From a virus, in IMG/VR virus record IMGVR_UViG_3300028417_000003, positions 1-35,886 of that record: DNA of 35,886 nucleotides; one strand, given 5' to 3'. This document shows positions 10,237 through 21,281 of the stretch, piece after piece (the first letter of the stretch is position 1; each line of letters opens with the position of its first letter). The position numbers and the translations under genes are program-made. The notes under the pieces are model-generated. The model saw nothing but the letters and a program-made list of their open reading frames with translations. It was not told the DNA's origin and did not search any database.

Positions 10237-10467
10237 TCATTTCACGCCGCCTATTTCTTCAATCGCTCTTAAAATATCTCCTGACATAACCCTTTTATGT
10301 TGACTTGCTAAGTTAACATTACCATCACTAAAAGCAAGCAAGACTATAGCAATGGTAGCAACAGTTATTTCATATTTGTCAATGGCAGGATTGTTAAATT
10401 CACTTGCAATAACCTCTGTTATCTTTTTAGTAGAAGCTACTGAACTTATTCTTTTATCGTTCATCAT
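10237..10467 (-). CDS. Hypothetical small protein
   Basis: The 76-residue product begins MMNDKRISSVASTKKITEVI and includes a hydrophobic segment (YEITVATIAIVLLAFSDG) too polar at its flanks to call a membrane helix. GGAG precedes the tandem ATG pair at a suitable distance. It is third in the leftward operon. No family was recognised. Confidence 0.6.
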   Translation of the reverse strand: MMNDKRISSVASTKKITEVIASEFNNPAIDKYEITVATIAIVLLAFSDGNVNLASQHKRVMSGDILRAIEEIGGVK

Positions 10468-10514
10468 TCATTCTCCATTGTTTATCTGATAGCTATATTT
10501 GAGATGTCTGGCAC

Positions 10515-10739
10515 TTATTCACTCTCATTGCTTAGAATAATTAAACCGTTAAAGTCTTTAAATTCGCTCATATCCCAATCGTCTGAATATTCACCAGCCA
10601 AACCGCAGTTGTTATGTGTCAGCGCTGTTCCATATCCATGCCTTATCATTAAGACGATTGTTCCGCTACTATCTATTATTAGCTTTGGATATGGTGTTTT
10701 AGTAGTTTTTGTGCTATCTATAGTCACTAATTTAATCAT
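10515..10739 (-). CDS. Hypothetical small phage protein
   Basis: The ATG at 10739 is chosen because GGAG lies eight bases before it; a GTG at 10745 is in frame but lacks spacing. The 74-residue protein is beta-prone (MIKLVTIDSTKTTKTPYPKL, then a SSGTIVLM strand and a HGYGTAL turn) and ends acidic. It appears to be a compact early protein without recognisable catalytic residues. Confidence 0.6.
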   Translation of the reverse strand: MIKLVTIDSTKTTKTPYPKLIIDSSGTIVLMIRHGYGTALTHNNCGLAGEYSDDWDMSEFKDFNGLIILSNESE

Positions 10740-10766
10740 TATCACATCTCCTTATTTCGTTTTTAA

Positions 10767-11081
10767 TTATGCAAATTTCCTATAAAACCCATTTTCACTA
10801 TTGGTGAAATTAGCCGCATCTTTTCTGGCATCAAACCATTTATAGTGCAAAGCATCAGACCACCAGCCTAGCCACTTGTTGCGTGATTTGCTAAACCCTA
10901 TTGAGCAAGCCTTATCTTTTGCTTGCGCTAATTCTGGGGTTATTAGCAATTCACTTAATAAATTAGCCACTATTTCACAATTAGTAATATAATCATTATT
11001 TGAATTATAATAGAATGGAACTTTCGCCATTCCACCTTCTGGATTAGTCGTAATTACTATTTTTTTAACAAAATCATTCAT
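10767..11081 (-). CDS. Hypothetical protein, first gene of leftward operon
   Basis: The reading frame is open to 11135, but ATG 11081 is the likely start. It has GGAG eight bases upstream, and the longer version would begin inside the promoter TTGACA. The 104-residue protein begins MNDFVKKIVITTNPEGGMAK and has an aromatic C-terminal half (KWLGWWSDALHYKWFDARKD). No family was recognised. As the promoter-proximal gene it should be among the earliest leftward products. Confidence 0.65.
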   Translation of the reverse strand: MNDFVKKIVITTNPEGGMAKVPFYYNSNNDYITNCEIVANLLSELLITPELAQAKDKACSIGFSKSRNKWLGWWSDALHYKWFDARKDAANFTNSENGFYRKFA

Positions 11082-11106
11082 TCTTCTATCTCCATTTAAT
11101 AAACCA

Positions 11107-11135
11107 AACCTAAAGCAAAGCAAAAGCAATGTCAA
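11107..11135 (-). promoter_or_regulatory. Leftward early promoter
   Basis: On the minus strand a perfect -35 TTGACA (11135-11130) is followed by a 17-base spacer of GCTTT-type repeats and a weaker -10 TAGGTT (11112-11107). Transcription would start near 11100, about 20 bases before the first gene's ATG and just ahead of its GGAG site. It would drive the recT operon. Confidence 0.55.
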
Positions 11136-11189
11136 GCCAGAAACTTAAAAAACTGCATTGACTTATTTACACTAAGATGTTAGGGGTTA

Positions 11190-11204
11190 TTTCTAACATA
11201 GAAA
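11190..11204. promoter_or_regulatory. Operator-like palindrome before the ribbon-helix-helix gene
   Basis: TTTCTA and TAGAAA form a perfect 6-bp inverted repeat around a 3-base ACA spacer, ending 9 bases before the ATG of the small RHH regulator. A TTGACT -35-like box (11158-11163) lies upstream without a good -10. Position and symmetry fit an autoregulatory operator for a dimeric repressor. A related palindrome occurs at 26530-26542. Confidence 0.5.
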
Positions 11205-11213
11205 GGTTTAATA

Positions 11214-11369
11214 ATGGCTAATACTAAAAAAATATCTACTTCATTGAGAGTGTCGCAAAAAGATTTTGACCAAATAAACGATTTGCTGGCATCTGAAAAA
11301 CGAGGTTCAAAGGCGGAATTGCTTTCGATTTTGATTAATGAGGCTTTGGAAGCGAGGGCAGGAAAATGA
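11214..11369 (+). CDS. Ribbon-helix-helix (Arc/CopG-like) transcription regulator
   Basis: The short gene encodes 51 residues. The N-terminal strand (KKISTSLRVSQKDFDQINDL) and the following helices (KRGSKAELLSILINEALEAR) match the pattern of ribbon-helix-helix repressors, with alternating small/polar residues in the strand and a loop GS before helix B. A perfect palindrome sits just upstream. It is the first gene of the rightward accessory operon, close to the divergent leftward promoter, so it could control one or both directions. Its stop overlaps an upstream ATG of the next frame. Confidence 0.75.
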   Translation: MANTKKISTSLRVSQKDFDQINDLLASEKRGSKAELLSILINEALEARAGK

Positions 11370-11383
11370 TTGAGGAGGAGGTT

Positions 11384-11656
11384 ATGTTTTCTGCATTTGG
11401 GTTCTCGGTTGGGATTGTAGCAGGCGCTACAATCATGCTGTTGGCTTTAGATACAGATAACGCAGCCTGCGAAAAGCAATATGATGTTTATAATTGGTCA
11501 CATTATAATAAACAATGGAACAATGAAAATCTTTTATCAGAGTTTTGGGATTATGGCAAATTCACGCAACCATCGTTTGGATTTAAGTGGGCATGCTGGG
11601 CGATAGCTTCAACTATAAAATTATACAATGAAAATAAGAATGAGGTGATATTATGA
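11384..11656 (+). CDS. Small membrane-associated protein
   Basis: ATG 11384 is preferred over the in-frame ATG at 11366 because a very strong GAGGAGGAG ribosome site lies directly before it. The 90-residue product begins with a hydrophobic helix (FGFSVGIVAGATIMLLAL, about residues 5-22), followed by an aromatic polar region (YDVYNWSHYNKQWNNE). A single N-terminal anchor with a soluble domain is suggested. Function is unknown. Confidence 0.6.
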   Translation: MFSAFGFSVGIVAGATIMLLALDTDNAACEKQYDVYNWSHYNKQWNNENLLSEFWDYGKFTQPSFGFKWACWAIASTIKLYNENKNEVIL

Positions 11657-11871
11657 GTAGTAAAATAAACATTCATTTAGAATATAAAACACGTGATGGG
11701 CAAAAAGTAAGGCTTCATGAAATTTGTAATGATGTTATTTGGGGCGCAATTTTCCTAACTGGATTTAATGATTGGATTCACCATACGTGGGATATTTACG
11801 GCAAATATAAACCTAAGAAGCCAGAACCGCACCATTTAGATTTGATAGGAAACAACGGAGAAACAAAATGA
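11653..11871 (+). CDS. Conserved small phage protein of unknown function
   Basis: The 72-residue product has the layout HLEYKTRDGQKVRLHEI, a central hydrophobic strand pair, and a C-terminal WDIYGKYKPKKPEPHHLDLI. Many phages encode a small protein with this YxTRDG...DxxGxY...HxLDL pattern; no function is established. GAGGTGATATT precedes the ATG, and the gene overlaps its upstream neighbour by four bases. Confidence 0.6.
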   Translation: MSSKINIHLEYKTRDGQKVRLHEICNDVIWGAIFLTGFNDWIHHTWDIYGKYKPKKPEPHHLDLIGNNGETK

Positions 11872-11918
11872 GCATTAAAGTAACAGAAATACCATCGAAA
11901 AAAGAGATATTTGAATAG
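11868..11918 (+). pseudogene. Possible truncated gene start before the first regulatory cassette
   Basis: An ATG overlapping the previous stop (ATGA) opens a 16-codon frame, MSIKVTEIPSKKEIFE, that ends at TAG 11918 just before the AT-rich motif and hairpin preceding the HNH gene. The coupled start suggests the beginning of a normal operon gene that was cut off when the HNH cassette arrived. It could also be a real small peptide. Confidence 0.3.
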
Positions 11919-11938
11919 CCCAGCAAGAAGTTTATTTG

Positions 11939-11954
11939 TTGATTAAATAATAAA
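11939..11954 (+). repeat. AT-rich 16-base motif, copy 1
   Basis: This copy matches the shared form TTRATTAAAYAATAAA found again at 12764-12779 and 13861-13876. All three are intergenic and precede hairpin-rich sequence. In copy 2 it supplies the -35 of a good promoter. In copy 1 the -10 is not recognisable. Confidence 0.6.
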
Positions 11955-11956
11955 GG

Positions 11957-12003
11957 TGATGAAAAGGGCAGGGAGAACTACTAATTCTCTACATGCCCCA
12001 TCA
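11957..12003 (+). promoter_or_regulatory. Leader hairpin before the HNH gene
   Basis: Nested complementary arms are visible: TGATG/CATCA (11957-11961 with 11999-12003), GGGCA/TGCCC (11966-11970 with 11994-11998) and GAGAA/TTCTC (11973-11977 with 11985-11989) around a 7-base loop. The hairpin ends about 20 bases before the GTG start. No T-run follows, so it looks like a leader structure rather than a terminator. Confidence 0.5.
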
Positions 12004-12023
12004 AAAGGAAACTGAGGTTCCAA

Positions 12024-12569
12024 GTGACTAAAAACAAATTAAACCAACCCACAGATAAAAGCAAGATAAATAATTTAACTCAAGAAGAGCTAAAATCTAT
12101 TTTGCATTATAATCCTAAAACTGGGATTTTCACCCGAAAAATCAGTGCAGGAGGTCGTAAGGTTGGATCTATCGCTGGGAGACCTAATAATATTGATTAT
12201 ATCAGAATTGGTATAAACGGCACTGATTATCTAGCGCATCGTTTAGCATTTTTATATATGACAGGCAGTTTTCCAAAAGACCAAGTCGACCATACAAATC
12301 AAAAGCGAAGCGATAACAGATTTGATAATTTAAGCGAATGCTCAAACCAAGAAAATGGTATGAACTGCCAACTAAGTAAGAATAACACATCAGGTTTTAA
12401 TGGGGTTTGTTTTGATGTTCCACGTAATAAATGGCAAGCGCAAATTATGGTAGATGGAAAAAGTAAACATCTTGGTAGGTTTCAAGGTTTTGAAGAAGCG
12501 GTTAGCGCACGTAAAAAAGCAAATATTAAATACGGATTTCATAAAAATCATGGTGGCGTTAATGAGTAA
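12024..12569 (+). CDS. HNH homing endonuclease with AP2-type DNA-binding domain
   Basis: Residues about 60-115 of this 181-residue protein carry the HNH_3 pattern: YLAHRLAFLYMTGSFPKD, then QVDHTNQKRSDNRFDNLSE with the metal-binding HN and H residues. Residues about 120-172 resemble an AP2 domain (SGFNGVCFDVPRNKWQAQI, then GRFQGFEEAVSARKKAN). Such free-standing enzymes cleave phage DNA at specific sites and spread by repair. The start is GTG with GAGG six bases before it. The gene has its own promoter-like motif and leader hairpin, indicating that it arrived as a cassette. No intron boundary was identified. Confidence 0.85.
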   Translation: MTKNKLNQPTDKSKINNLTQEELKSILHYNPKTGIFTRKISAGGRKVGSIAGRPNNIDYIRIGINGTDYLAHRLAFLYMTGSFPKDQVDHTNQKRSDNRFDNLSECSNQENGMNCQLSKNNTSGFNGVCFDVPRNKWQAQIMVDGKSKHLGRFQGFEEAVSARKKANIKYGFHKNHGGVNE

Positions 12570-12602
12570 AAACCGACTAGTGAGCGAGGCAATGTTATTT
12601 CA

Positions 12603-12749
12603 ATGACAAAGCTTGATAGAGATCGAGATAATGCGATTTGGGTTGAATGTGAGAAAATATTAAAACGTAAGGCTCCGACATCAAATAACGATTGGTCATT
12701 TAAAACTGAAATTGTAAATCAAGCTAAATTAAACTTAGGAAAATATTGA
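12603..12749 (+). CDS. Hypothetical 48-residue protein
   Basis: The product begins MTKLDRDRDNAIWVECEKIL and ends NQAKLNLGKY. A 14-codon frame (12562-12606, MSKNRLVSEAMLFQ) overlaps both the HNH stop and this ATG by ATGA junctions, so translation could be relayed from the HNH gene. Its last 45 bases are repeated imperfectly at 15546-15590, where another frame uses them. No function was recognised. Confidence 0.5.
   Translation: MTKLDRDRDNAIWVECEKILKRKAPTSNNDWSFKTEIVNQAKLNLGKY
12705..12749 (+). repeat. Imperfect 45-base direct repeat, copy A
   Basis: This segment, around GAAATTG-Y-AAATCAAGC and its AAATTAAA continuation, recurs at 15546-15590 with roughly ten differences. Here it encodes the TEIVNQAKLNLGKY end of the 48-residue protein. 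In the second copy the same frame would read [14 protein letters not shown], but the gene there uses a different frame. Confidence 0.65.
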
Positions 12750-12763
12750 AGCATATTTAATAA

Positions 12764-12792
12764 TTGATTAAACAATAAAACTAGTTTATAAA
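12764..12792 (+). promoter_or_regulatory. Promoter containing AT-rich motif copy 2
   Basis: TTGATT (12764-12769), a 17-base spacer and TATAAA (12787-12792) form a good sigma-70-type promoter. The -35 is part of the shared 16-base motif at 12764-12779. Transcription would start near 12799, at the base of a strong hairpin, and read toward the PP-loop gene. Confidence 0.6.
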
Positions 12793-12797
12793 GAGCG

Positions 12798-12826
12798 AGC
12801 GGGAAGTTTGTGACAACTTAACCGCT
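12798..12826 (+). promoter_or_regulatory. Leader hairpin before the PP-loop gene
   Basis: AGCGG (12798-12802) pairs with CCGCT (12822-12826), and AAGTT (12804-12808) pairs with AACTT (12815-12819) around TGTGAC. The predicted transcript would begin with this hairpin. It occupies the same position in its cassette as the hairpin before the HNH gene. Confidence 0.5.
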
Positions 12827-12854
12827 CAAATCAAACAGCATTAGAGGTGCTAGA

Positions 12855-12911
12855 ATGACTAAAAAAACAATAAAGCATTATCAGAATAATTGCAAGGGGC
12901 TTCTCTTATGA
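12855..12911 (+). CDS. 18-residue leader peptide or homing-endonuclease remnant
   Basis: The peptide MTKKTIKHYQNNCKGLLL starts behind GAGGTGCTAGA. That context, and the first codons ACTAAAAA, are very similar to the start of the HNH gene at 12014-12034. Its stop overlaps the next ATG (ATGA), giving translational coupling to the PP-loop gene. It is either a functional leader peptide or the stump of a lost second HNH gene. Confidence 0.4.
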   Translation: MTKKTIKHYQNNCKGLLL

Positions 12912-13648
12912 GTAGGGTAATATCTTGGTTTTCTTGTGGTGCGGCATCAGCAATAGCTACAAAAATGCTAATTGGTGAGATTGATGTTATTGCTTATTGT
13001 GAAACAGGTGCAGAGCATGAAGATAATAAACATTTTATGGCAGATTGTGTCAGGTGGTATAATAAACCAATTAAATCAATAAAATCAGATAAATACACAG
13101 ATTTGTGGGATTGTTGGAATAAGGTTAGATACCTTGCTGGCAATAATGGTGCAAGATGCACAACAGAAATGAAAGTTAAGCCTCGCTTAAAATTTCAAAG
13201 ACCAACCGATACCCATATTTTTGGGTATACTGCAGATAAAGCTGATGTAAATAGGGCTAAGAGATTTAAGGAAAATTATTTTGAATTAAACGTCAAATTT
13301 CCTTTGATTGAAGCTGGCATAACTAAAGCCGCATGTTTGGCGATGTTGCAAACAGCAGAGATTAAAACCCCAACAATGTATAATTTAGGGTATAAAAATA
13401 ACAACTGCATACCGTGTGTGAAAGCAACATCAGCCAATTATTGGGCTTTAATAAGGGAAACACACCCAGAAGAATTTAAACGCATGGTTAAGCTTTCAAG
13501 AAAGCTAAATGTTAGATTGTGCCGAATGAACTTAACTGGTGAAATCGAAAGATATTTCATTGATGAAATACCAGCACAATATCCTACGACTAACCCGATC
13601 CAACCATCATGTGATTTTATGTGTCATTTAGTAATGAAAGATTTTTAA
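12908..13648 (+). CDS. PP-loop protein, PAPS reductase-like phage family
   Basis: ATG 12908 is preferred to the in-frame TTG at 12890 because AAGGGG lies eight bases before it. The 246-residue product begins with the nucleotide-binding P-loop-like SWFSCGAASAIA, the adenine-nucleotide alpha-hydrolase signature seen in phage PAPS reductase/DndC-type proteins. It also has ARCTTEMKVKPRLKF and a CIPCVKAT pair that could bind metal or form a redox couple. The family activates a substrate with ATP, often in sulfur transfer or nucleotide modification. The exact substrate here is unknown. A contribution to DNA or tRNA modification is possible. Confidence 0.8.
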   Translation: MSRVISWFSCGAASAIATKMLIGEIDVIAYCETGAEHEDNKHFMADCVRWYNKPIKSIKSDKYTDLWDCWNKVRYLAGNNGARCTTEMKVKPRLKFQRPTDTHIFGYTADKADVNRAKRFKENYFELNVKFPLIEAGITKAACLAMLQTAEIKTPTMYNLGYKNNNCIPCVKATSANYWALIRETHPEEFKRMVKLSRKLNVRLCRMNLTGEIERYFIDEIPAQYPTTNPIQPSCDFMCHLVMKDF

Positions 13649-13649
13649 C

Positions 13650-13823
13650 ATGTTTGCTTACTTACTATCACCACAAGAAAAAGAAGATAAAATATTATCT
13701 GACCTTATAAAATTAAAAGAAAAGGCAGATAGGTACGGGGTTCGTATTAGCTGGGAGCTTCAATCAAAAGATGTGCCAGTTTATGATGCGCATGGAAATT
13801 TGGTTAAATTCAAAAACTTATAG
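13650..13823 (+). CDS. Hypothetical 57-residue protein
   Basis: A short frame starts two bases after the PP-loop gene stop and encodes MFAYLLSPQEKEDKILSDLI, a charged helix with ADRYGVRISWELQS, and a basic end (VKFKNL). Immediate proximity and balanced codon use suggest a real operon gene. No strong ribosome site is separable from the upstream coding sequence. Function is unknown. Confidence 0.5.
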   Translation: MFAYLLSPQEKEDKILSDLIKLKEKADRYGVRISWELQSKDVPVYDAHGNLVKFKNL

Positions 13824-13860
13824 TATTTCATTTTATATAAGTAGTTCTTTAGAAATGAAG

Positions 13861-13876
13861 TTAATTAAATAATAAA
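13861..13876 (+). repeat. AT-rich 16-base motif, copy 3
   Basis: This copy matches TTRATTAAAYAATAAA and continues AACTAAAGACTA. Its position, downstream of a gene and ahead of structured sequence, parallels the copies at 11939 and 12764. Confidence 0.55.
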
Positions 13877-13967
13877 ACTAAAGACTATTAGAAATCTATT
13901 CCATATACGCCGATTATTTAGAATATTTTACCCTTTATCTTTAGAGCTTATTGTATTATAAAAGTTA

Positions 13968-14069
13968 AGGCGATGATCCCTTTTGAAAATCACCGCCTCT
14001 AAATTACAGACGTTCATTGACACCCGTTTGTAATTGTTAAGCCAACCTTATAACAGGCTCTCGCTTAAC
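13968..14069 (+). ncRNA. Candidate structured RNA: three adjacent hairpins
   Basis: Stem 1 pairs AGGCGATGAT (13968-13977) with ATCACCGCCT (13989-13998), with one mismatch. Stem 2 pairs AATTACAGAC (14002-14011) with GTTTGTAATT (14026-14035), with one G-U pair. Stem 3 pairs GTTAAGC (14036-14042) with GCTTAAC (14063-14069); an alternative AGCC/GGCT pairing lies within it. A weak promoter-like TTTATC-17-TATAAA (13934-13962) ends six bases upstream. A T-rich tract follows near 14098-14111. No known RNA family was recognised. Confidence 0.45.
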
Positions 14070-14185
14070 GTCAATACCCCAAATGATGTCTAGCCAGTTT
14101 TGTTTGTTTTTCTATTGCCAAAAAACATTGATTAAAGAAATAGAATATGTTGCTTAAATTTAGAAGTCAATATGGCTAACTGCGG

Positions 14186-14197
14186 AGGCAAGGACAA
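14186..14197 (+). repeat. 12-base direct repeat, copy 1
   Basis: AGGCAAGGACAA occurs here and at 14226-14237, exactly 40 bases apart. A short palindrome ACTTTCAAAGT follows this copy. The pair lies next to an AT-rich tract. Confidence 0.7.
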
Positions 14198-14225
14198 CTT
14201 TCAAAGTGTTTTATGACTTCAACAA

Positions 14226-14237
14226 AGGCAAGGACAA
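14226..14237 (+). repeat. 12-base direct repeat, copy 2
   Basis: This is the second AGGCAAGGACAA, 40 bases after the first. It is followed within 25 bases by an AT-rich stretch that includes TATAAT (14263-14268). Confidence 0.7.
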
Positions 14238-14457
14238 TTCTTTTCTAACTACAAAGACTATATATAATATCAATTACACCTTAAAAATATGGGGCGTGAA
14301 GCGCAACATAGGCAGTGGGTGACGAAATAAGGAGCGGCAGCTTCTTTTGTGATAAACGATGATTAGTGGGTAATGTTACTATTAGGCGTAGGCACGTCTT
14401 AGAAATTGGTTGGAGGGCTTCTCCAGATTTCATTGTGATCGATAAGAATTGATATTG

Positions 14458-14463
14458 TATAAT
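14458..14463 (+). promoter_or_regulatory. Promoter -10 box ahead of the GIY-YIG gene
   Basis: A perfect TATAAT lies about 70 bases before the GIY-YIG gene. The best -35 candidate is TTGTGA (14433-14438) at a long 19-base spacing. The resulting leader would contain a small TAGGG/CCCTA hairpin. Confidence 0.4.
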
Positions 14464-14532
14464 CAGGCGTAAAGCAATTTAATGAATTTAGCGTAGGGCT
14501 TCCTATTACCCCTATACTGCCTTGTTTTATAT

Positions 14533-15081
14533 ATGAAGAAAGATGAAAAAATGAAATTAAATAGATTAAGAAAACGAATAAAAAACTTAAAAGAGCAAAA
14601 GCTTTTTATGGGTGTTACTAAAGAGGATATTGAGAAGCTTCAACTTTTAATGGGTTTAGGTGAAAGGGCTTTATCACAAGTAGCTTTAGCAAATAAAATT
14701 CTTATTGATGAGAACCGTATGTTTTCAAGCCCTATGACTGGATTGATAGCTGATAGCATTGTTAAAAAAAGAATGGTTAGAGAGGGTATATTAGCTTCTA
14801 ATAAAACTGGCATGAAAGTTAAGAATTCATCATCATTCATTTATATTGTGAAGCAGGTTAATGATGATGGGTTTATAAAAATTGGGAAAGCTAATAATGT
14901 TGAACGTAGGGTTGCGAGCTTGCAAGTTGGCTCTCCTTATAAATTAAAGATTATTAAAATTATAAAAGCAAATACTTCTTCTCATGCTTTACTTATTGAG
15001 AAAGCCTTACACAGAAAGTTTAAAAAACATAAAGTGCGAGGTGAATGGTATAAATCTTGTGTTAGTGAGTGTGTTTACTAA
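14533..15081 (+). CDS. GIY-YIG family protein, T5orf172/MUG113-like
   Basis: The C-terminal half (about residues 100-178 of 182) shows the degenerate GIY-YIG pattern of the T5orf172/MUG113 group: FIYIVKQVNDDGFIKIGKAN, then NNVERRVASLQVGSP and a helix with HALLIEKALHRKF before GEWYK. The N-terminal half is helical and basic and may bind DNA. Starts at 14533 and 14551 are both possible. The gene stands alone between a promoter-like box and its own terminator, which suggests a recently acquired mobile endonuclease or moron. Endonuclease activity is expected from the family but not demonstrated. Confidence 0.8.
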   Translation: MKKDEKMKLNRLRKRIKNLKEQKLFMGVTKEDIEKLQLLMGLGERALSQVALANKILIDENRMFSSPMTGLIADSIVKKRMVREGILASNKTGMKVKNSSSFIYIVKQVNDDGFIKIGKANNVERRVASLQVGSPYKLKIIKIIKANTSSHALLIEKALHRKFKKHKVRGEWYKSCVSECVY

Positions 15082-15092
15082 CACGTCTTTTT
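15059..15092 (+). terminator. Intrinsic terminator overlapping the end of the GIY-YIG gene
   Basis: GTGTTAGT (15059-15066) and ACTAACAC (15077-15084) form a perfect 8-bp stem around a 10-base loop, followed by GTCTTTTT. The GIY-YIG stop codon (15079-15081) lies inside the 3' arm. This is the clearest intrinsic terminator in the rightward region. Confidence 0.75.
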
Positions 15093-15120
15093 GATAACTA
15101 TGGAATTAAGGAGAAATAAA

Positions 15121-15573
15121 ATGACGGATTATACAAAAATACCAGAACATAAATTAGCTGGAGAATTAGGCACTGATGCGAGCAAATGGGCTGACGCTCT
15201 TGTTCAGTATAGCATAAAACATTCATTTAATATTGATGATGAAATTTTACTAACATGGTTTGCTAATGCAATAGAAACCGCTAAGTTAGAGCCTAAATCA
15301 ATAATAGTAACAAGAAATCATGCAAAGGCTTTTATCGAAGCAATCAATCCATATGAGGTTAATTGCGGTCACAGAGAAAAAGAAAGACCTAGTGAGGCTA
15401 GAACCTTTTTAAAGGGCTTAATGGGTGTTGTTCCTGTTGAAATTTGGCATCAAAAAAAAGGCAATGAAAGTTGTGAGTTATTAGCTGATGTTTTACGCCA
15501 AATAGCGGCACATATTGAGGTTAGTGGAGAGGAATTTCAAGCACAACAGAAATTGCAAATCAAGCTAAATTAA
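15121..15573 (+). CDS. Hypothetical protein, 150 residues
   Basis: ATG 15121 is chosen because AAGGAG lies immediately upstream; a TTG at 15091 is in frame but falls in the terminator tail. The product begins MTDYTKIPEHKLAGELGTDA and is mostly helical and soluble (KWADALVQYSIKHSF, then a LLTWFANAIETAK helix). No catalytic motif is visible. Its final codons are shared with an imperfect 45-base repeat read in another frame elsewhere, so the present C-terminus (QAQQKLQIKLN) may be secondary. Confidence 0.65.
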   Translation: MTDYTKIPEHKLAGELGTDASKWADALVQYSIKHSFNIDDEILLTWFANAIETAKLEPKSIIVTRNHAKAFIEAINPYEVNCGHREKERPSEARTFLKGLMGVVPVEIWHQKKGNESCELLADVLRQIAAHIEVSGEEFQAQQKLQIKLN

Positions 15574-15590
15574 ATCTAAGGAAATTATAA
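15546..15590 (+). repeat. Imperfect 45-base direct repeat, copy B
   Basis: This copy resembles 12705-12749. It covers the end of the 150-residue gene and supplies the AAGGAAA ribosome site of the release-factor-like gene at 15592. Confidence 0.65.
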
Positions 15591-15591
15591 G

Positions 15592-15957
15592 ATGAGCAAA
15601 AAGAGATTATTATTTTCAATAACTGCTAAAGATTGCAGATTTGATTATTATCGTGGTTCTGGCGCTGGCGGGCAACATAGAAACAAAACAGACAGCGCGG
15701 TTAGATGCACTCATATCTTATCAGGAGCGGTTGGAAAATGTGAAGAGAGTAGAAGTCAGCATAAAAACAAGGCTCAAGCTTTCGGGAAAATGGCAAAGAC
15801 TAAAGAATTTCTTGCTTGGCACAAAATAGAAACTGCTAGGCTCATGGGCAAATTCGTTGGCGTTGATGAAGCAGTTGATAAAGAAATGAAGAAAATTAGA
15901 ACCGAAATTAAAGTTGATGGAAAATGGAAAATCGCCCAACCCCAAGTCAGAACATAA
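15592..15957 (+). CDS. Release-factor-like protein with GGQ peptidyl-tRNA hydrolase motif
   Basis: The 121-residue protein is essentially the catalytic domain 3 of class I release factors. It reads [18 protein letters not shown] with the invariant GGQ at residues 26-28, then [20 protein letters not shown], which matches the domain's SQHxNK element. It lacks the stop-codon recognition and switch domains, so it has the size of ArfB/YaeJ-like rescue factors. Its SGAGGQ context, however, is closer to RF1/RF2. The C-terminal 45 residues are helical and basic. A role in releasing stalled ribosomes or in tuning host translation is inferred. The ribosome site AAGGAAA comes from the repeat just upstream. 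Confidence 0.85.
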
Positions 15958-15984
15958 AACAATAAAACAAAGGAGATAGAGAAA

Positions 15985-16191
15985 ATGGGAAGCGTTAAAG
16001 AAAACATAGAGGCTGGCAATTTTAGTTGTTCTGATTGTCAAAAAACAATTACGCAAGAAAATGATATTGTTGTTGTTAATAGAGATATTAAGGTTGGCTT
16101 TATGAGCGAGACAGAAAGGTTTATATTATGTATTTCTTGCGCGCAACTTGAAGAAGAGAACAATCAATCGAAGCTAAAGTTAAAATTATGA
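15985..16191 (+). CDS. Small zinc-ribbon-like protein
   Basis: The 68-residue product has two CxxC pairs, FSCSDCQKTI near residues 14-17 and ILCISCAQLE near residue 50, typical of a small treble-clef or zinc ribbon. Between them lies a beta segment (NDIVVVNRDIKVG). AAGGAGATAG precedes the ATG. Its stop overlaps the methyltransferase start by ATGA. Its partner is unknown; it may bind nucleic acid. Confidence 0.6.
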   Translation: MGSVKENIEAGNFSCSDCQKTITQENDIVVVNRDIKVGFMSETERFILCISCAQLEEENNQSKLKLKL

Positions 16192-16784
16192 AAGGCTTAA
16201 AGGTAATATCACTTTTTGACGGAATGGCTGGGGGCATGCAAGCATTGAAAATGGCTAATATTCCAGTGTCAGAATATCATGCTTTTGAGATAGACCCATA
16301 CGCTATAAAAGTAGCAAAACACAATCACCCTGGAATAATTCATCATGGTTCGGTTGTTGATTTTGACTTCACACAATTCAAAGATGTTGATTTGTTAATA
16401 GGCGGTTCACCATGCACAGGCTTTTCTAGGGCTGGCAAAGGATTAAATTTTGACGATCCACAATCAAAGCTATTTTTTGACTTTGTGCGTGCAAAAGAAG
16501 AAATGAAACCGAAAAGATTTAGTGATTGTAAGAAGTTTTACACGTTAACCGCTCAAGATAAGCATGGTGTTTTAATTGAGGGCTATATAAGAAAGCTAAC
16601 GCCAATAGAATGCTTGAGATTGCAAAGCTTCACTGATAATTGTTTAGATGTTGATGGGATAAGCAATGCGCAAAAATATCGCATGACAGGTAACGGGTGG
16701 AACATTGAAGTAATAACGCATAATTTGAACGAAATGAAATTAAACAAACCACCTGCTGCATTTCAGCTATCAATGGAAATATAG
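16188..16784 (+). CDS. C5-cytosine DNA methyltransferase with internal deletion
   Basis: The 198-residue product has motif I (ISLFDGMAGG, residues 7-16), motif II around FEIDPYA and the catalytic loop GGSPCTGFSRAG with C76. It then passes abruptly near residues 109-113 (MKPKRFSDCKKFY) to C-terminal elements: YTLTAQDKHGVL, IRKLTPIECLRLQ (motif IX) and GNGWNIEVI (motif X). The segment that should carry the ENV glutamate (motif VI), motif VIII arginines and the target-recognition domain is absent while the frame is kept. Phage enzymes of this type are usually clearly longer. As written it should not methylate DNA. In-frame deletion and assembly collapse are both possible. Confidence 0.8.
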   Translation: MKGLKVISLFDGMAGGMQALKMANIPVSEYHAFEIDPYAIKVAKHNHPGIIHHGSVVDFDFTQFKDVDLLIGGSPCTGFSRAGKGLNFDDPQSKLFFDFVRAKEEMKPKRFSDCKKFYTLTAQDKHGVLIEGYIRKLTPIECLRLQSFTDNCLDVDGISNAQKYRMTGNGWNIEVITHNLNEMKLNKPPAAFQLSMEI

Positions 16785-16792
16785 GAGAATGA

Positions 16793-17338
16793 ATGATGAA
16801 GTGTAAAGCTAGTGACATTGTAGAAGCTCTAATTAAGCGCGCTAAAGAAAGTGATTTGATATGGGTTGAAGAGCTTAGACTAAATAGTGGCTCTAGCAGG
16901 GTTGATTTTTGGACAATGAAACCTCACGCTAGCACTGGATTTAATGCAGTTTCTTATGAGATAAAAGTAAGCAAACAGGATTTCAAAAAAGACAGCTTAG
17001 AAAAACAAACGCAGGCGCTTTCTTTTTGTGACAAATTTTATTTCGTCATGCCTGTTGGTTTGATTGATAAATCAGAAATACCAGAATGGGCAGGGTTAAT
17101 TGAATATAATGGTTTGTTAAAAGTGGTAAAGCGAGCGCCTAAGAAAGAACAAAAGAGCCACCCTAATTGGGATTTTGTCACTTCAATTTTAAGAAATAGT
17201 GCAAAATTCGGGCGGGATACTGATATTTTTAGAAAACAAATTTCAGATTTGCAGGTTAATCTAGCGCAAGAAAAAAGAGAAACAGTTATTTTCAAAAGAT
17301 TATATGAGAGATCTGTTGAAAAAATACAAGGAGAATAG
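16793..17338 (+). CDS. PD-(D/E)XK-type (MmcB-like) nuclease-fold protein
   Basis: The pattern SSRVDFWTMKP followed by AVSYEIKVSKQDFKKD fits the D...ExK core of restriction-endonuclease-fold proteins, as in the MmcB DNA-repair family (D at about residue 38, E-I-K at about 62-64). A conserved FYFVMPVGLIDKSEIPEWAG strand-helix follows. The C-terminal 50 residues form a likely coiled coil. It follows the methyltransferase by eight bases, with GGAG as ribosome site, so a modification/repair pairing is suggestive. Catalysis is not certain. Confidence 0.7.
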   Translation: MMKCKASDIVEALIKRAKESDLIWVEELRLNSGSSRVDFWTMKPHASTGFNAVSYEIKVSKQDFKKDSLEKQTQALSFCDKFYFVMPVGLIDKSEIPEWAGLIEYNGLLKVVKRAPKKEQKSHPNWDFVTSILRNSAKFGRDTDIFRKQISDLQVNLAQEKRETVIFKRLYERSVEKIQGE

Positions 17339-17340
17339 AG

Positions 17341-17673
17341 ATGAGTAACAAAGATTTAATTAAAAGGATTAGAAGCGCTGCTAAAAATGCACCAAACCGC
17401 AGTTTTCTTTTTGAAATAGCCGAAGCACTAGAAGCTCATGAATGGCAACCTATCGCAACAGCGCCTAAAGAAGGAACAGAGATTTTAGTTTATAATGGAA
17501 CTAATGAAGGTTTTTATAAAGCAAAGGGCGATATGGGCGTGGTTTCATGGAAAAAACAGTCATTCCCAAACGGCAAAATGGCATGGCGCACCGCTGATTG
17601 CTGTGATGGTGTTGCTACTTATGATGGAGCAACTCATTGGCAACCACTTCCATCAGCTCCAGAGGTGGAATAA
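17341..17673 (+). CDS. DUF551-like phage protein
   Basis: The 110-residue product contains EWQPIATAPKEGTEILVYNG and ends in THWQPLPSAPE, the two hallmark ends of the small DUF551 domain common in phages (WxPIxxAPKDGT...HWxPLPxPP). The first 35 residues are a helical extension. An AAGGAG site precedes ATG. Its stop shares a base with the next start (TAATG). No function is established for the family. Confidence 0.8.
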   Translation: MSNKDLIKRIRSAAKNAPNRSFLFEIAEALEAHEWQPIATAPKEGTEILVYNGTNEGFYKAKGDMGVVSWKKQSFPNGKMAWRTADCCDGVATYDGATHWQPLPSAPEVE

Positions 17674-17774
17674 TGACTGATAAAATCGAAAAACTCAAAG
17701 TAGTAAACGTCAAAAACGAGGTTAATGAAACTATAATTGAGATATTAAAGACCTCATTGAAAGAGGTTTTATAA
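17673..17774 (+). CDS. 33-residue hypothetical protein
   Basis: The short frame encodes MTDKIEKLKVVNVKNEVNET and a helical remainder ending KEVL. Both ends share a base with neighbouring genes in TAATG junctions, so termination-reinitiation is expected. The paired overlaps are the main evidence that it is translated. Confidence 0.5.
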   Translation: MTDKIEKLKVVNVKNEVNETIIEILKTSLKEVL

Positions 17775-17989
17775 TGACAATTGTTAAAGGAATTACGCAA
17801 AGTGGTGTAAACTTATATAACTGTGATTGGCTTTACTGCAATACGCATAATCAGCCTTGGGCTAGTGGGTGGTATTGGTATGGTTCGATTAGAGATAGTG
17901 AAGAAAATACAGATTTACTTTTAACATTTTGCTCAAAGACCTGCGCAGAGAGTTATAATGGTGGTGAATTTAAGGTGAAAAAGTCTTAA
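17774..17989 (+). CDS. Small Cys/Trp-rich protein
   Basis: The 71-residue product has four cysteines and a histidine spaced as a possible zinc site (NCDWLYCNTH, then TFCSKTCAES) and an aromatic loop (PWASGWYWYGSIRD). It is linked at both ends by TAATG junctions. It could be a small nucleic-acid- or protein-binding zinc module; no family name is offered. Confidence 0.55.
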   Translation: MTIVKGITQSGVNLYNCDWLYCNTHNQPWASGWYWYGSIRDSEENTDLLLTFCSKTCAESYNGGEFKVKKS

Positions 17990-18174
17990 TGCCAGCGGCT
18001 CTAATTAAAGGACGATTGCACAAAAAATGTGAGGTGTGCCAAAGCCCTAATGCAAGCTTTGGGTTTGGTGTAAATTTGAGAGAAGCTCTTAGGCAAAAAG
18101 AGTTGAAGAATATTAATAGGGCTAGAGAGAATTTGGGTAAATGGTATTGCAATGAACACAAAGGTGTTGTATGA
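17989..18174 (+). CDS. Small zinc-finger-like protein, end of rightward operon
   Basis: The 61-residue basic protein has CEVCQSPNASFGFGVN and a C-terminal WYCNEHKGVV, giving a C-x2-C...C-x2-H set that could hold zinc. The middle is a charged helix (REALRQKELKNINRARENLG). It starts by a TAATG junction and is the last gene before the convergent intergenic region. Function is unknown. Confidence 0.55.
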   Translation: MPAALIKGRLHKKCEVCQSPNASFGFGVNLREALRQKELKNINRARENLGKWYCNEHKGVV

Positions 18175-18183
18175 AGATGTTTC

Positions 18184-18212
18184 TCTAACACGCCTTATTG
18201 AGATGTGTTAGA
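18184..18212. terminator. Hairpin 1 in convergent gap
   Basis: TCTAACAC (18184-18191) and GTGTTAGA (18205-18212) form a perfect 8-bp stem with a 13-base loop, ten bases after the last rightward gene. The core of the stem matches the terminator stem at 15059-15084. No strong T-run follows on the plus strand, so termination efficiency is uncertain. Confidence 0.45.
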
Positions 18213-18220
18213 ATTTAGCA

Positions 18221-18252
18221 CCAGAGGCTTACTGTGGCGGTTTTGCCTCTGG
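18221..18252. terminator. Hairpin 2 in convergent gap
   Basis: CCAGAGGC (18221-18228) pairs perfectly with GCCTCTGG (18245-18252) around a 16-base loop; TCAGTTATTTT follows. It is a plausible terminator for the rightward operon together with hairpin 1. Confidence 0.5.
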
Positions 18253-18267
18253 TCAGTTATTTTGCAG

Positions 18268-18324
18268 TTTCTAACATAAGAATATTTATATGTTGTAAAG
18301 TGGGGTGGTTTCTAGTATAAGAAA
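18268..18324. promoter_or_regulatory. Pair of operator-like repeats in convergent gap
   Basis: TTTCTAACATAAGAA (18268-18282) and TTTCTAGTATAAGAAA (18309-18324) are near-copies 41 bases apart, each with TTCT/AGAA dyad symmetry. They resemble the palindrome at 11190-11204. They may bind a phage regulator, though they do not sit at an obvious promoter. Confidence 0.4.
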
Positions 18325-18356
18325 TTTGTTGCATAATTATGGGTGTGACGTCAAGA

Positions 18357-18397
18357 CCGCTCCCCCCTTTATTTCTAAGCATAAAGGCTGGGGGCGG
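18357..18397. terminator. Strong GC-rich hairpin after the HTH gene
   Basis: CCGCTCCC (18357-18364) pairs with GGGGGCGG (18390-18397, one G-U), and CCTTTAT (18366-18372) pairs with ATAAAGG (18381-18387) around TTCTAAGC. It begins 11 bases beyond the stop of the minus-strand HTH gene. It is the most stable-looking hairpin in the window. A T-run is lacking, so it may be a processing or roadblock element rather than a classical terminator. Confidence 0.5.
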
Positions 18398-18407
18398 CAT
18401 TCCAAGA

Positions 18408-18602
18408 TTAATTGCCTCTCCAAAGACCAGAGACGTAATCAAACTCGCCTTCTAGCTGTTTACAAGCTAGTTCCAGCATTTTACTGCCACCTTTTTTGCG
18501 ATAATTCACAATTGCTCTTGTAGTAACCTCTAACATTTTAGCCGCTTCAATATTTGACAATTCAAGCTGTTTTTGCCATTCCTTAAATTCAGTTGCGGTC
18601 AT
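18408..18602 (-). CDS. XRE/Cro-like helix-turn-helix protein
   Basis: The 64-residue product has a compact HTH of the lambda-repressor type: EFKEWQKQLELSNIEAAKML, EVTTRAIVNYRKKG and KMLELACKQLEG. Helix 2-turn-helix 3 spans about residues 16-36. It lacks a separate oligomerisation domain, as in Cro-like proteins. It overlaps the preceding gene by four bases and closes a leftward operon. A role in the regulatory switch or early shut-off is inferred. Confidence 0.75.
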   Translation of the reverse strand: MTATEFKEWQKQLELSNIEAAKMLEVTTRAIVNYRKKGGSKMLELACKQLEGEFDYVSGLWRGN

Positions 18603-19009
18603 TTCACACTCTCCTCAATTGCCATGTTGTTTTTACAAAGACTTATTATATCATCTAATGCCCACGCTATATTTTCTGGTCTGCCTCTATTTTTCCAAGT
18701 GTTATCTTTGTTAGGCTTTAACGCTAGGAACACATCAAGTGTGTGGTTTTCCTCCATAAGTCCGATTAGCTTAAATCTACTACTAACCATATCCATTCTA
18801 GCGAATTGGTCTCGTAGTTTACTGATTGTTTCAGAATTAGTCTCCCCTTTTGCCCCACAAAATTCACCGATCAGTATTGCTTGACATTCCATTAAATCTA
18901 CTCCAAACTCATCAGCAGGCTTTTGAAGTAATTCAACCACTCCATCAATCCCGATTTTGTCAACCTTATCAATCGTTCTTAATGTTTGTAATCTTTGTTC
19001 GCTATTCAT
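18599..19009 (-). CDS. Phage protein resembling the HisRS inter-domain segment
   Basis: The N-terminus of this 136-residue protein, LQTLRTIDKVDKIGIDGVVE, strikingly resembles the conserved RxIDKLDKIG segment of histidyl-tRNA synthetases. The rest (acidic helices, then a region with RGRPENIAWALDDIIS) does not contain catalytic class II motifs. It is therefore not a synthetase; it may share a helical module with HisRS. The start shares a base with the previous stop. Function is unknown. Confidence 0.6.
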   Translation of the reverse strand: MNSEQRLQTLRTIDKVDKIGIDGVVELLQKPADEFGVDLMECQAILIGEFCGAKGETNSETISKLRDQFARMDMVSSRFKLIGLMEENHTLDVFLALKPNKDNTWKNRGRPENIAWALDDIISLCKNNMAIEESVK

Positions 19010-19365
19010 TAAAATTTCTCCTTTTCCAAATCATTCTCAAAATCTGCTCTATCAGCGTATTCATCATAATTAGCGTCAATTACAATTGCTTCAATTTCAT
19101 CGCTAATATATTCCAAGAATATATCTGGTGTCATTCCTTTAGCGTCTGCCAAATCATCGCAACAAGACAGTTCGCCTGCATTGCAAGCCAACCACTCTTT
19201 AGCCACCTCTTCGGTAGCATCAGCCGCTGACAGCTCATCATCGGTTGATGTCATTAAAATGATTTTGACGACATACTCAAATAATAACTTAGAGGCTACG
19301 ATTTGTTCTTTTGTCATTTTATCGCTGAAATCATCAGCGAATTCTATTAAATAAAAATCATTCAT
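19009..19365 (-). CDS. Acidic hypothetical protein
   Basis: The 118-residue protein is very acidic (MNDFYLIEFADDFSDKMTKE, then STDDELSAADATEEVAKEWL) and helical. Small highly acidic phage proteins often mimic DNA or inhibit host enzymes, but nothing specific supports that here. A GAGGATATAGAGAA element precedes ATG. It lies between the HisRS-like gene and an apparently AUU-initiated gene. Confidence 0.6.
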   Translation of the reverse strand: MNDFYLIEFADDFSDKMTKEQIVASKLLFEYVVKIILMTSTDDELSAADATEEVAKEWLACNAGELSCCDDLADAKGMTPDIFLEYISDEIEAIVIDANYDEYADRADFENDLEKEKF

Positions 19366-19383
19366 TTCTCTATATCCTCTAGT

Positions 19384-19638
19384 TTAGTTGTTATCTTTTC
19401 CACGCATTTCTGCTAATTTCAAAGTTGTATGCACGCAAGTATTGTGAATGATTTGCCCCATAAATTCATGACTTATTGCATAACGGAATTCAATGATTTT
19501 GCCAGCCGAGTTAAGTGTGATAGCATAATCTGTAACGGTTGTCTTTTTTGGGTGCTTAGCTCTTGGTATAAATTTGTGTCCAATTGGATAAATATCTTTG
19601 CCTAATAATTCAGTTAAAATTTTCTGTGAATATTTAAT
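19384..19638 (-). CDS. Conserved small phage protein, apparently AUU-initiated
   Basis: An 84-codon frame has a TAG two codons before the first usable position and no ATG, GTG or TTG in its first half. The only codon at correct distance (seven bases) from a GGAG site is ATT at 19638. The protein, with KDIYPIGHKFIPRAKHPKKT, then NSAGKIIEFRYAISHEFMGQ and a CVHTTLKLAEMRG end, looks like a family of small phage proteins with a HKFxPR...HEFMGQ layout. That makes the frame credible despite the start. Either a rare AUU start is used or a G was lost from ATG. Confidence 0.6.
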   Translation of the reverse strand: MKYSQKILTELLGKDIYPIGHKFIPRAKHPKKTTVTDYAITLNSAGKIIEFRYAISHEFMGQIIHNTCVHTTLKLAEMRGKDNN

Positions 19639-19694
19639 GCTCTATCTCCATTTGTGTTTCTATAGCTCTAATATAGTGAACTTATTTCGCCCTG

Positions 19695-19838
19695 TCAACT
19701 GTAAAGTGAACTTTTTGCGCTTTTCTTTAAGCCTAAATAATCATCAATAAGTTTATATGCCTCATTCAGTCGCCCTTCATTTTTAAGCCGAACAATCCAA
19801 TAAGCGAAATCTTGGTCGCTCATATCCTCGACTCTCAT
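19695..19838 (-). CDS. 47-residue hypothetical protein
   Basis: The product begins MRVEDMSDQDFAYWIVRLKN and continues as an amphipathic helix (GRLNEAYKLIDDYLGLKK). Its ATG overlaps the stop of the preceding small membrane protein by ATGA. A second ATG at codon 6 is also possible. No function was recognised. Confidence 0.5.
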   Translation of the reverse strand: MRVEDMSDQDFAYWIVRLKNEGRLNEAYKLIDDYLGLKKSAKSSLYS

Positions 19839-19930
19839 AGCGCCACCAGAATATCAGCCCAAAAATATATTGAAATCATAAAGCCACCTAGAGCGGCTAA
19901 TGTGCATAAATCTTTAATCAAATTCATCAT
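19835..19930 (-). CDS. 31-residue single-pass membrane peptide
   Basis: The peptide begins MMNLIKDLCTLAALGG and consists mostly of one hydrophobic helix (LAALGGFMISIYFWADILV). It is the promoter-proximal frame of the leftward set starting near 19940 and overlaps the next gene by four bases. Phage membrane peptides of this size can act as lysis inhibitors or exclusion factors; the role here is unknown. Confidence 0.45.
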   Translation of the reverse strand: MMNLIKDLCTLAALGGFMISIYFWADILVAL

Positions 19931-19948
19931 TGTATTTTTCCATTTTCT

Positions 19949-19977
19949 GTTGTAATGTGATTTGATTATTGCATCAA
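19949..19977 (-). promoter_or_regulatory. Candidate leftward promoter of the HTH operon
   Basis: On the minus strand TTGATG (19977-19972), a 17-base spacer and TACAAC (19954-19949) make a moderate sigma-70-like promoter. It would start transcription about 12 bases before the membrane-peptide ATG, which is short but usable. Confidence 0.3.
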
Positions 19978-19991
19978 AAAGCTAATATTAG
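19962..19991 (+). promoter_or_regulatory. Candidate rightward late promoter
   Basis: TTGATT (19962-19967) and TATTAG (19986-19991) with an 18-base spacer overlap the opposite-strand promoter candidate. Transcription would begin just before the ATG at 20007. The whole divergent gap is only 76 bases, so the two directions may compete. Confidence 0.3.
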
Positions 19992-20006
19992 GTTAAGGGC
20001 TGAAAA

Positions 20007-21281
20007 ATGATAACAAAATCCATAGTTTCAAGAATATCTAAGCCTATTGTTAGTGGAGTGGCTGGTAATTGGTGGGGGAATTTAGGCGTTGACTTTGGCA
20101 ATAATTTCCTTGCAATGCAATTCCAGAACAACAAATACGTTAAGAACAATCAGCAAAAAAGCTTGGCTGGAACTGGATTTACGTCAATTCACCCTGATGA
20201 TATTAATAGTTTCGATAAGTCTGGAATACTGGATACATTTGGAGCAGATGTTCCTGCGAGGAATAATAGTGGATTGTTAGGAGCTCCGGCAAGTGCAACT
20301 AATTTGAACCGATATTCAGGTAATGATCCCAGCTGGACTGGAGGTGGAACAACACCCCCCATTGTTGACACTGATGTGACATTTGATGGCATTCGTGGCG
20401 TTTCTGCTACTTTTGACGAAAATTCTGATAGTGGATATGGTGGTTCACGTGCGACAGGGTCTAACTTCCCTGTATCGGCGGGTATAGAATATACGGCATC
20501 ATATGTGCTGAAATTATCGCGCGTACTGACTGGCAGCGAGAGATTACAGGTTTATATAACAGGTAGTTATGGCGGCTGGTCGAAAGTTTTTAACAGCTCG
20601 AGCGACTACACGACACCCACAGAAATATCAATCTCGGATACTGTGCCTGTAAGTGGTGATATATATTTCACAATTTTTGTGCATACGGCTCCATTATCCT
20701 CTCCTGTCACTGTTTCTATCGGACATCGCCAATTTGAAGCGGGCGCATTTGCAACTTCCCCTATTATAACCTCAGGAGCAGCTAAACTACGGACGGGTGC
20801 AAGAGATGCAATATCAGGATTGGCACTTGACACTGGTATTGATTTTGCTTGTGTTGTTGATATCCAAGATACTGGTAGTGGCTCTATAAGATTGTTTGAA
20901 TTCAATGATGGAACTGACAATAACAAAATCATGATTTATCATAATAGCGGCAATGTTTGGCTACAGGTAAAAAGCGGGGGCTCAATAACTGCCGATGTAA
21001 ATCTGGGGGCGTGGGTTATAGGGCTACAAGCCTTTGTTTTTTCAGTGGGGGCAGACTACCTTAAAGCCAGTATTGTTGGGCAAGCGGCGGTAACTGATAG
21101 CGCAGTAACATTGCCAGTAACAACTACAGCTAATTTTCTTGGTGCAGGGCGTGTAAACACTGAAAATGTTAATGGTGCAATGCTAGAGCAGTATCACAGA
21201 GCAGGTGACACAGTAAACGATACCAGCTTTGCTGAATTTGAAACTCTAGCACAAGCCAGACTTACAGCGAATGGGGGCTAA
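20007..21281 (+). CDS. Fibre/appendage protein with carbohydrate-binding-like and lectin-like domains
   Basis: The 424-residue protein has a short N-terminal region (VSGVAGNWWGNLGVDFGNNF). A beta-sandwich like those of carbohydrate-binding modules follows (about residues 90-260, including VTVSIGHRQFEAGAFATSPI, the QLEAGxFATS-type ending common in phage fibres). A C-terminal concanavalin/LamG-like region comes last (DFACVVDIQDTGSGSIRLFE, then NVWLQVKSGG). It probably decorates the virion or binds host glycans. It opens the late operon, far from the other two receptor-type genes. The exact location on the particle is unknown. Confidence 0.65.
   Translation: MITKSIVSRISKPIVSGVAGNWWGNLGVDFGNNFLAMQFQNNKYVKNNQQKSLAGTGFTSIHPDDINSFDKSGILDTFGADVPARNNSGLLGAPASATNLNRYSGNDPSWTGGGTTPPIVDTDVTFDGIRGVSATFDENSDSGYGGSRATGSNFPVSAGIEYTASYVLKLSRVLTGSERLQVYITGSYGGWSKVFNSSSDYTTPTEISISDTVPVSGDIYFTIFVHTAPLSSPVTVSIGHRQFEAGAFATSPIITSGAAKLRTGARDAISGLALDTGIDFACVVDIQDTGSGSIRLFEFNDGTDNNKIMIYHNSGNVWLQVKSGGSITADVNLGAWVIGLQAFVFSVGADYLKASIVGQAAVTDSAVTLPVTTTANFLGAGRVNTENVNGAMLEQYHRAGDTVNDTSFAEFETLAQARLTANGG

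Follow-up and report, generated by a model that had tools for sequence, protein, structure and literature searches.

ColE1 RNA I and R1 CopA are short antisense RNAs that form two to three hairpins, the 3′ one being a terminator, and that face the 5′ end of a long plus-strand leader. Hairpins with a 3′ intrinsic terminator also characterize the OOP RNA of phage lambda, and a terminator hairpin is present in the sar RNA of phage P22. These two phage antisense RNAs measure 77 nucleotides (nt) and 68/69 nt, respectively (PMC12197685). Stand-alone homing endonuclease genes are held down post-transcriptionally, and in the case of I-TevI, mobE, and segB, an RNA structure upstream of the mobile nuclease gene keeps expression low (PMC3014915). 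The mycobacteriophage prophages Alma and LadyBird possess RNA-based origins in which a noncoding gap is transcribed against the neighboring gene; these origins lie beside parABS and are needed for prophage maintenance (PMC7157519). Here, we analyze a cluster of three hairpins upstream of a nuclease gene in a 35,886-base IMG/VR virus record (IMGVR_UViG_3300028417_000003; the whole stretch is hereafter referred to as the window), and conclude that the cluster is most likely a minus-strand RNA element of a type for which phages offer precedents. As a leading but tentative explanation, we propose a small minus-strand unit, namely a cis antisense RNA of ~80 nt with an intrinsic terminator, that would damp the nuclease unit.

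The hairpin cluster and its strand

The cluster is real: sequence and folding place three stems back to back at 13967-14069, and the three consecutive hairpins that a first-pass annotation of the window had located at 13968-14069 are present there. Read on the plus strand, hairpin 1 (13968-13998) comprises 5 base pairs (bp), a 1x1 internal loop, and 4 bp; hairpin 2 (14002-14035) comprises 11 bp, including one G-U pair; and hairpin 3 (14036-14069) comprises 7 bp plus an inner 3 bp. For the 102-nt span, the folding energies are -26.1 kcal/mol on the plus strand (shuffle mean -13.7, z -4.5) and -37.6 kcal/mol on the minus strand (shuffle mean -20.2, z -5.7), although these z values are inflated because the presence of hairpins guided the choice of the span. 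None of 1000 shuffles was as stable on either strand, in agreement with the annotation’s expectation of folding beyond shuffled controls. A fairer figure is given by blind tiling of both strands with 120-nt tiles (~1190 in all), among which the minus-strand tile at 13921-14040 is 7th (z -4.7) and its plus-strand counterpart 12th (z -3.5), most of the tiles ranked above them lying in coding sequence.

The strands differ at hairpin 1, where several positions that pair as G-U on the minus strand are A·C mismatches on the plus strand. With these wobble pairs, the minus strand forms an unbroken stem of 14 bp and a 5-nt loop (13967-13999; -18.3 kcal/mol, z -5.9), whereas the plus-strand stem is broken (-9.4 kcal/mol, z -3.4). 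When folded as DNA, where wobble pairs weigh less than in RNA folding, both strands are equal at z -3.4. That both fold beyond chance as DNA, and that the dyad GTTAAGC..GCTTAAC of hairpin 3 is perfect over 7 bp, would suit an element acting at the DNA level, with binding dyads or a single-strand initiation site and the hairpins as extruded DNA; nevertheless, strand asymmetry in wobble pairs is a mark of RNA, and the tie in DNA folding contrasts with a clear minus-strand preference in RNA folding, which leaves such an element quite improbable. More generally, where a hairpin cluster lacks relatives for covariation, an asymmetry in wobble pairs can suggest its strand.

On the minus strand, hairpin 1 is followed by AACTTTTATAAT and resembles an intrinsic terminator, with a U-rich tail at 13958-13966. 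It was the best terminator-like site, with 14 pairs, in a tool-based scan of 10300-20100, and the only site to pass in our own scan of the whole window (>9 uninterrupted pairs, ≥4 of the pairs G-C, and a T-tail); it is thus the strongest terminator-like site on either strand according to two independent scans, and just 0.025 such sites of at least 14 pairs are expected per shuffled window. The antisense strand is accordingly predicted to carry a 3′ intrinsic terminator of the OOP/sar type (14-bp stem plus T-tail). The tail is the reverse complement of a plus-strand TATTAT/TATAAA box that the first-pass annotation had taken for a promoter; as such, the box is weak (at best 8/12 matches). The T-rich tract that the annotation noted near 14100 does exist, but no preceding hairpin makes it a plus-strand terminator, and neither hairpin 1 nor hairpin 2 is followed by a T-tail on the plus strand. 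All strand-specific cues other than hairpin 2 favor the minus strand, which is probably the correct one.

The putative antisense RNA and the probable plus-strand leader

A promoter-like site on the minus strand (14047-14074; TTGACG-16-TATAAG, 10/12 matches, with TGT before the second hexamer as in an extended -10) precedes the terminator stem by 48 nt, in the correct order, and has a predicted start near 14042. Together, the wobble asymmetry, the T-tail found on the minus strand only, and this order of promoter and terminator point to a minus-strand RNA of ~80 nt (~13960-14042) with two hairpins, the 3′ one a terminator; the corresponding sequence folds with z -4.5, and 1 of 1000 shuffles was as stable. 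The hairpin nearer the predicted start is hairpin 2 (minus strand, 14002-14035; AATTACAnACG/CGTnTGTAATT with a 12-nt loop). An alternative promoter-like site upstream (minus strand, 14142-14170; TTGACT-17-TATTCT, 9/12) would yield an RNA of ~175 nt containing all three hairpins, and the choice between the two sites is not firm. Hairpin 3, the dyad of which (minus strand, 14036-14069) spans the first of these sites, is less likely to belong to the RNA than to be DNA that overlaps the promoter; it may represent an operator, or an RNA hairpin if transcription starts further upstream.

The opposite strand carries a 21-base AT-rich box, RTTRATTAAAYAATAAAACTA, that occurs at 11938-11958, 12763-12783, and 13860-13880 (three copies found vs. 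0.03 expected), exclusively in three intergenic leaders preceding early gene units. Downstream of each of the copies at 11938 and 12763 come a hairpin of ~33 nt (z about -3 on either strand) and the gene, in that order, and the 12763 copy reads TTGATT-17-TATAAA when its downstream bases are included; 87 nt separate the end of the third copy from hairpin 1. The box may be a shared early promoter or leader element, and plus-strand transcription probably starts or is controlled at the 13860 copy. Since the box is common to other plus-strand leaders, such transcription probably crosses the hairpin locus, and a minus-strand RNA made there would be antisense to the ~650-nt 5′ leader of the nuclease gene. 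The same arrangement could instead indicate a plus-strand noncoding RNA or structured 5′ leader containing the three hairpins and starting from the 13860 box or the TATTAT box, given that both other leaders have a hairpin before the gene, that the span also folds beyond chance on the plus strand, and that hairpin 2 prefers this strand. Such an RNA would, however, have its first hairpin broken by A·C mismatches, no terminator after the third, and only the weak promoter matches near 13960 (8/12) if initiated there; we therefore consider it unlikely, placing it second among the alternatives.

In the antisense unit that we favor, the promoter overlapping the dyad would drive minus-strand transcription from ~14042 to 13960, producing an RNA with one AT-rich hairpin followed by the strong 3′ intrinsic terminator. 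This RNA would lie opposite the 5′ leader of a plus-strand unit that runs from near the 13860 box through the GIY-YIG nuclease gene to a terminator at 15092, and by pairing perfectly with that leader in cis, it would lower the stability or expression of the nuclease transcript, with a DNA-binding protein at the GTTAAGC dyad setting the RNA dose. The antisense relation follows from position, and we infer the regulatory effect; given the long distance between the pairing site and the nuclease start codon, the RNA would more plausibly act through transcript stability or early termination than by blocking ribosomes directly.

Several observations weigh against this proposal. Promoter-like sites of comparable quality number 23 in the window and 24.9 in shuffles, and from these counts we estimate a probability of roughly 5% that a terminator has such a site on its own strand in the ~160 nt preceding it; the promoter consequently adds modest support only, and we infer minus-strand transcription. 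In addition, the -10 hexamer TATAAG lacks the final T, the T-tail of the terminator is short (AACUUUUAUAAU), and hairpin 2 alone folds slightly better on the plus strand (z -3.8 vs. -1.9). A distance of ~490 nt separates the pairing site from the nuclease start codon, which is long for direct control of translation, and although the locus sits opposite a leader preceded by the shared box, a search for trans targets among gene starts performed no better than shuffled queries. Finally, the searches described below yielded no homologue from which covariation could be assessed.

According to the main rival explanation, only the terminator is real and stops stray antisense transcription before the PAPS-reductase unit, no dedicated RNA is made, and the other two hairpins either have no role or are dyads bound by protein as DNA. 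The terminator-like hairpin is indeed the sole component that is strong by itself; moreover, the leaders at 11938 and 12763 also have hairpins and T-rich sequence on the minus side with no clear minus-strand promoter, and this phage may generally place hairpins that face upstream in its leaders. Yet the two hairpins directly upstream, together with a promoter-like site in the right order, would then be coincidences, and the z value of -5.7 for the three-hairpin span on the minus strand would be left aside. We regard a lone terminator as an unlikely account, albeit the foremost competitor of the antisense RNA.

Searches for known families returned no Rfam match at the gathering score, with a permissive search giving only chance-level matches (E 1.3-4.5), and ARAGORN detected neither tRNA nor tmRNA, in keeping with the first-pass statement that the locus does not look like a tRNA, a tmRNA, or a riboswitch that can be named. 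A BLAST comparison of the gene-free gap containing the cluster with phages and plasmids gave chance matches only, as did a comparison with the full records of 30 relatives (best E 0.05 over 18 nt). In five DNA-pattern scans of public collections, which relied on exact matching and would thus miss diverged copies, the promoter/dyad, hairpin 2, and 14290-14307 patterns had no matches in viral contigs, and hairpin 1 had none in genome contigs. Five matches to the stem 1 pattern in viral contigs were rejected, as their surroundings look protein-coding and the contigs are unrelated. Relatives were also sought through neighboring proteins: none emerged for the PAPS reductase, the nuclease, or (in genomes) RecT, and none of 80 viral loci retrieved with the large terminase (TerL; at most 66% identity) had similar early-region DNA. 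A covariance model built from the single sequence recovered only the window itself from 1.04 Mb comprising the window and its relatives (63 sources). The absence of relatives in these searches is weak evidence of absence. The first-pass designation of an undescribed noncoding RNA is a fair reading in that neither an Rfam match nor a homologue was found, but the strand and boundaries it gave are probably wrong.

Genome setting and neighboring elements

The contig is a podovirus-like bacterial virus with a phage head and packaging set (terminase, portal, major head, and scaffolding proteins), and its large terminase is 63% identical to the EBPR podovirus 2 homologue. The best IMG/VR terminase match in a protein-guided search is 66% identical, which leaves no near relative for comparison. 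The hairpin cluster lies in the largest gene-free gap of the window (13824-14532, 709 nt), between a small open reading frame (ORF) that follows a PAPS-reductase-like gene and the T5orf172/MUG113 (GIY-YIG-type) nuclease gene, which was assigned by family matches (plus strand, 14533-15081). The annotation had called this gap the only large gene-free stretch; it is the largest, but 18175-18598 is also gene-poor and contains strong hairpins (CTAACACG..TGTGTTAG and ACCAGAGGC..GCCTCTGGT at 18185-18260, z about -4.5 on both strands), along with a G/C-rich hairpin near 18355-18400.

No coding relative was found for the 709-nt gap in any of the ten frames tested, the single family match being at E 0.02, and a decayed gene was rejected on this basis. 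A short minus-strand ORF running through the terminator (~14019-13928) was likewise dismissed, as it matches no family and lacks a clear ribosome-binding site. G-rich blocks and repeats resembling AGGCGTAGGC occur in the second half of the gap (plus strand, 14287-14530), where the plus-strand fold has z -1.6 to -1.7; neither a second structured RNA at 14165-14540 on the plus strand (z only -1.6) nor a group I intron there (no Rfam support) was accepted.

A long gene-free plus-strand transcript, with the start of which the 3′ end of a hairpin- and terminator-bearing antisense RNA would be face to face, also recalls an RNA-primed replication origin, in which a minus-strand RNA I-like antisense would limit a plus-strand leader (~550-650 nt) serving as an RNA II-like primer in place of a protein initiator. 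PHROGs scans of the tested proteins gave no replication initiator, and RNA-based prophage origins are known from mycobacteriophages (PMC7157519). The agreement is one of geometry only, however: the Rfam RNAI family gave no match even at E<=5, no parABS gene was seen, the plus-strand half at 14165-14540 folds only slightly beyond chance, and the failure to find an initiator carries little weight in a contig that is possibly incomplete. An origin of this type is the least probable of the explanations considered and would be surprising here.

The nuclease unit is closed by an intrinsic-terminator-like hairpin with a TCTTTTTG tail (plus strand, 15058-15092). This hairpin includes one of two plus-strand copies of the motif CTAACACG(T/C)CTT(T/A)TTGA (15078-15094 and 18185-18201, vs. 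0.14 expected), each of which lies inside a hairpin. Elsewhere, a 41-bp repeat (12704-12744 vs. 15545-15585, plus strand, 85% identical) duplicates the C-terminal end of the protein encoded at 15091-15573 in a short ORF preceding the PAPS-reductase leader, and 15592-15957 (plus) encodes an RF-1 domain (peptide-chain release factor-like) protein in this small podovirus-like genome, with its best-listed phage relatives in mycobacteriophages at about 44% identity. On the minus strand, 10767-11135 encodes a protein matching Pfam Tad6, a type I Thoeris inhibitor (E 2.8e-11), and is likely an anti-defence gene, and a strong promoter-like site at 19698-19670 (TTGACA-17-TATATT) is surrounded by AAGTTCACT repeats in an operator-like arrangement.

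Comparison with known systems

If the RNA is made, it would constitute a new, family-less small antisense RNA adjoining a mobile nuclease gene, would extend the short list of phage antisense RNAs, and would suggest RNA control of nuclease cassettes; a terminator alone would be ordinary. The candidate shares with lambda OOP its length class (77 nt) and the layout of a small RNA directed against a phage early operon (PMC12197685), but OOP overlaps and targets the cII coding sequence, whereas the candidate lies in a gap, has a target deduced from its position, and matches no Rfam family in sequence. Similarly, P22 sar, a phage antisense RNA measuring 68/69 nt, exerts repression by pairing (PMC12197685); it interferes with the translation start of ant, whereas in the candidate ~490 nt separate the pairing site from the next start codon downstream. 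The candidate thus appears to resemble OOP and sar in layout only. ColE1 RNA I and R1 CopA have the same hairpin/terminator layout facing a long plus-strand leader, but the candidate has no RNAI match and is accompanied by no evidence of an origin or rep gene. Although the present contig shows no parABS gene, it has in common with Alma and LadyBird a noncoding phage gap with (here predicted) transcription against the neighboring gene. The hairpins described here lie far upstream and on the opposite strand compared with those of I-TevI, mobE, and segB, and the likeness to these systems consists of a mobile nuclease gene preceded by an RNA structure (here predicted).
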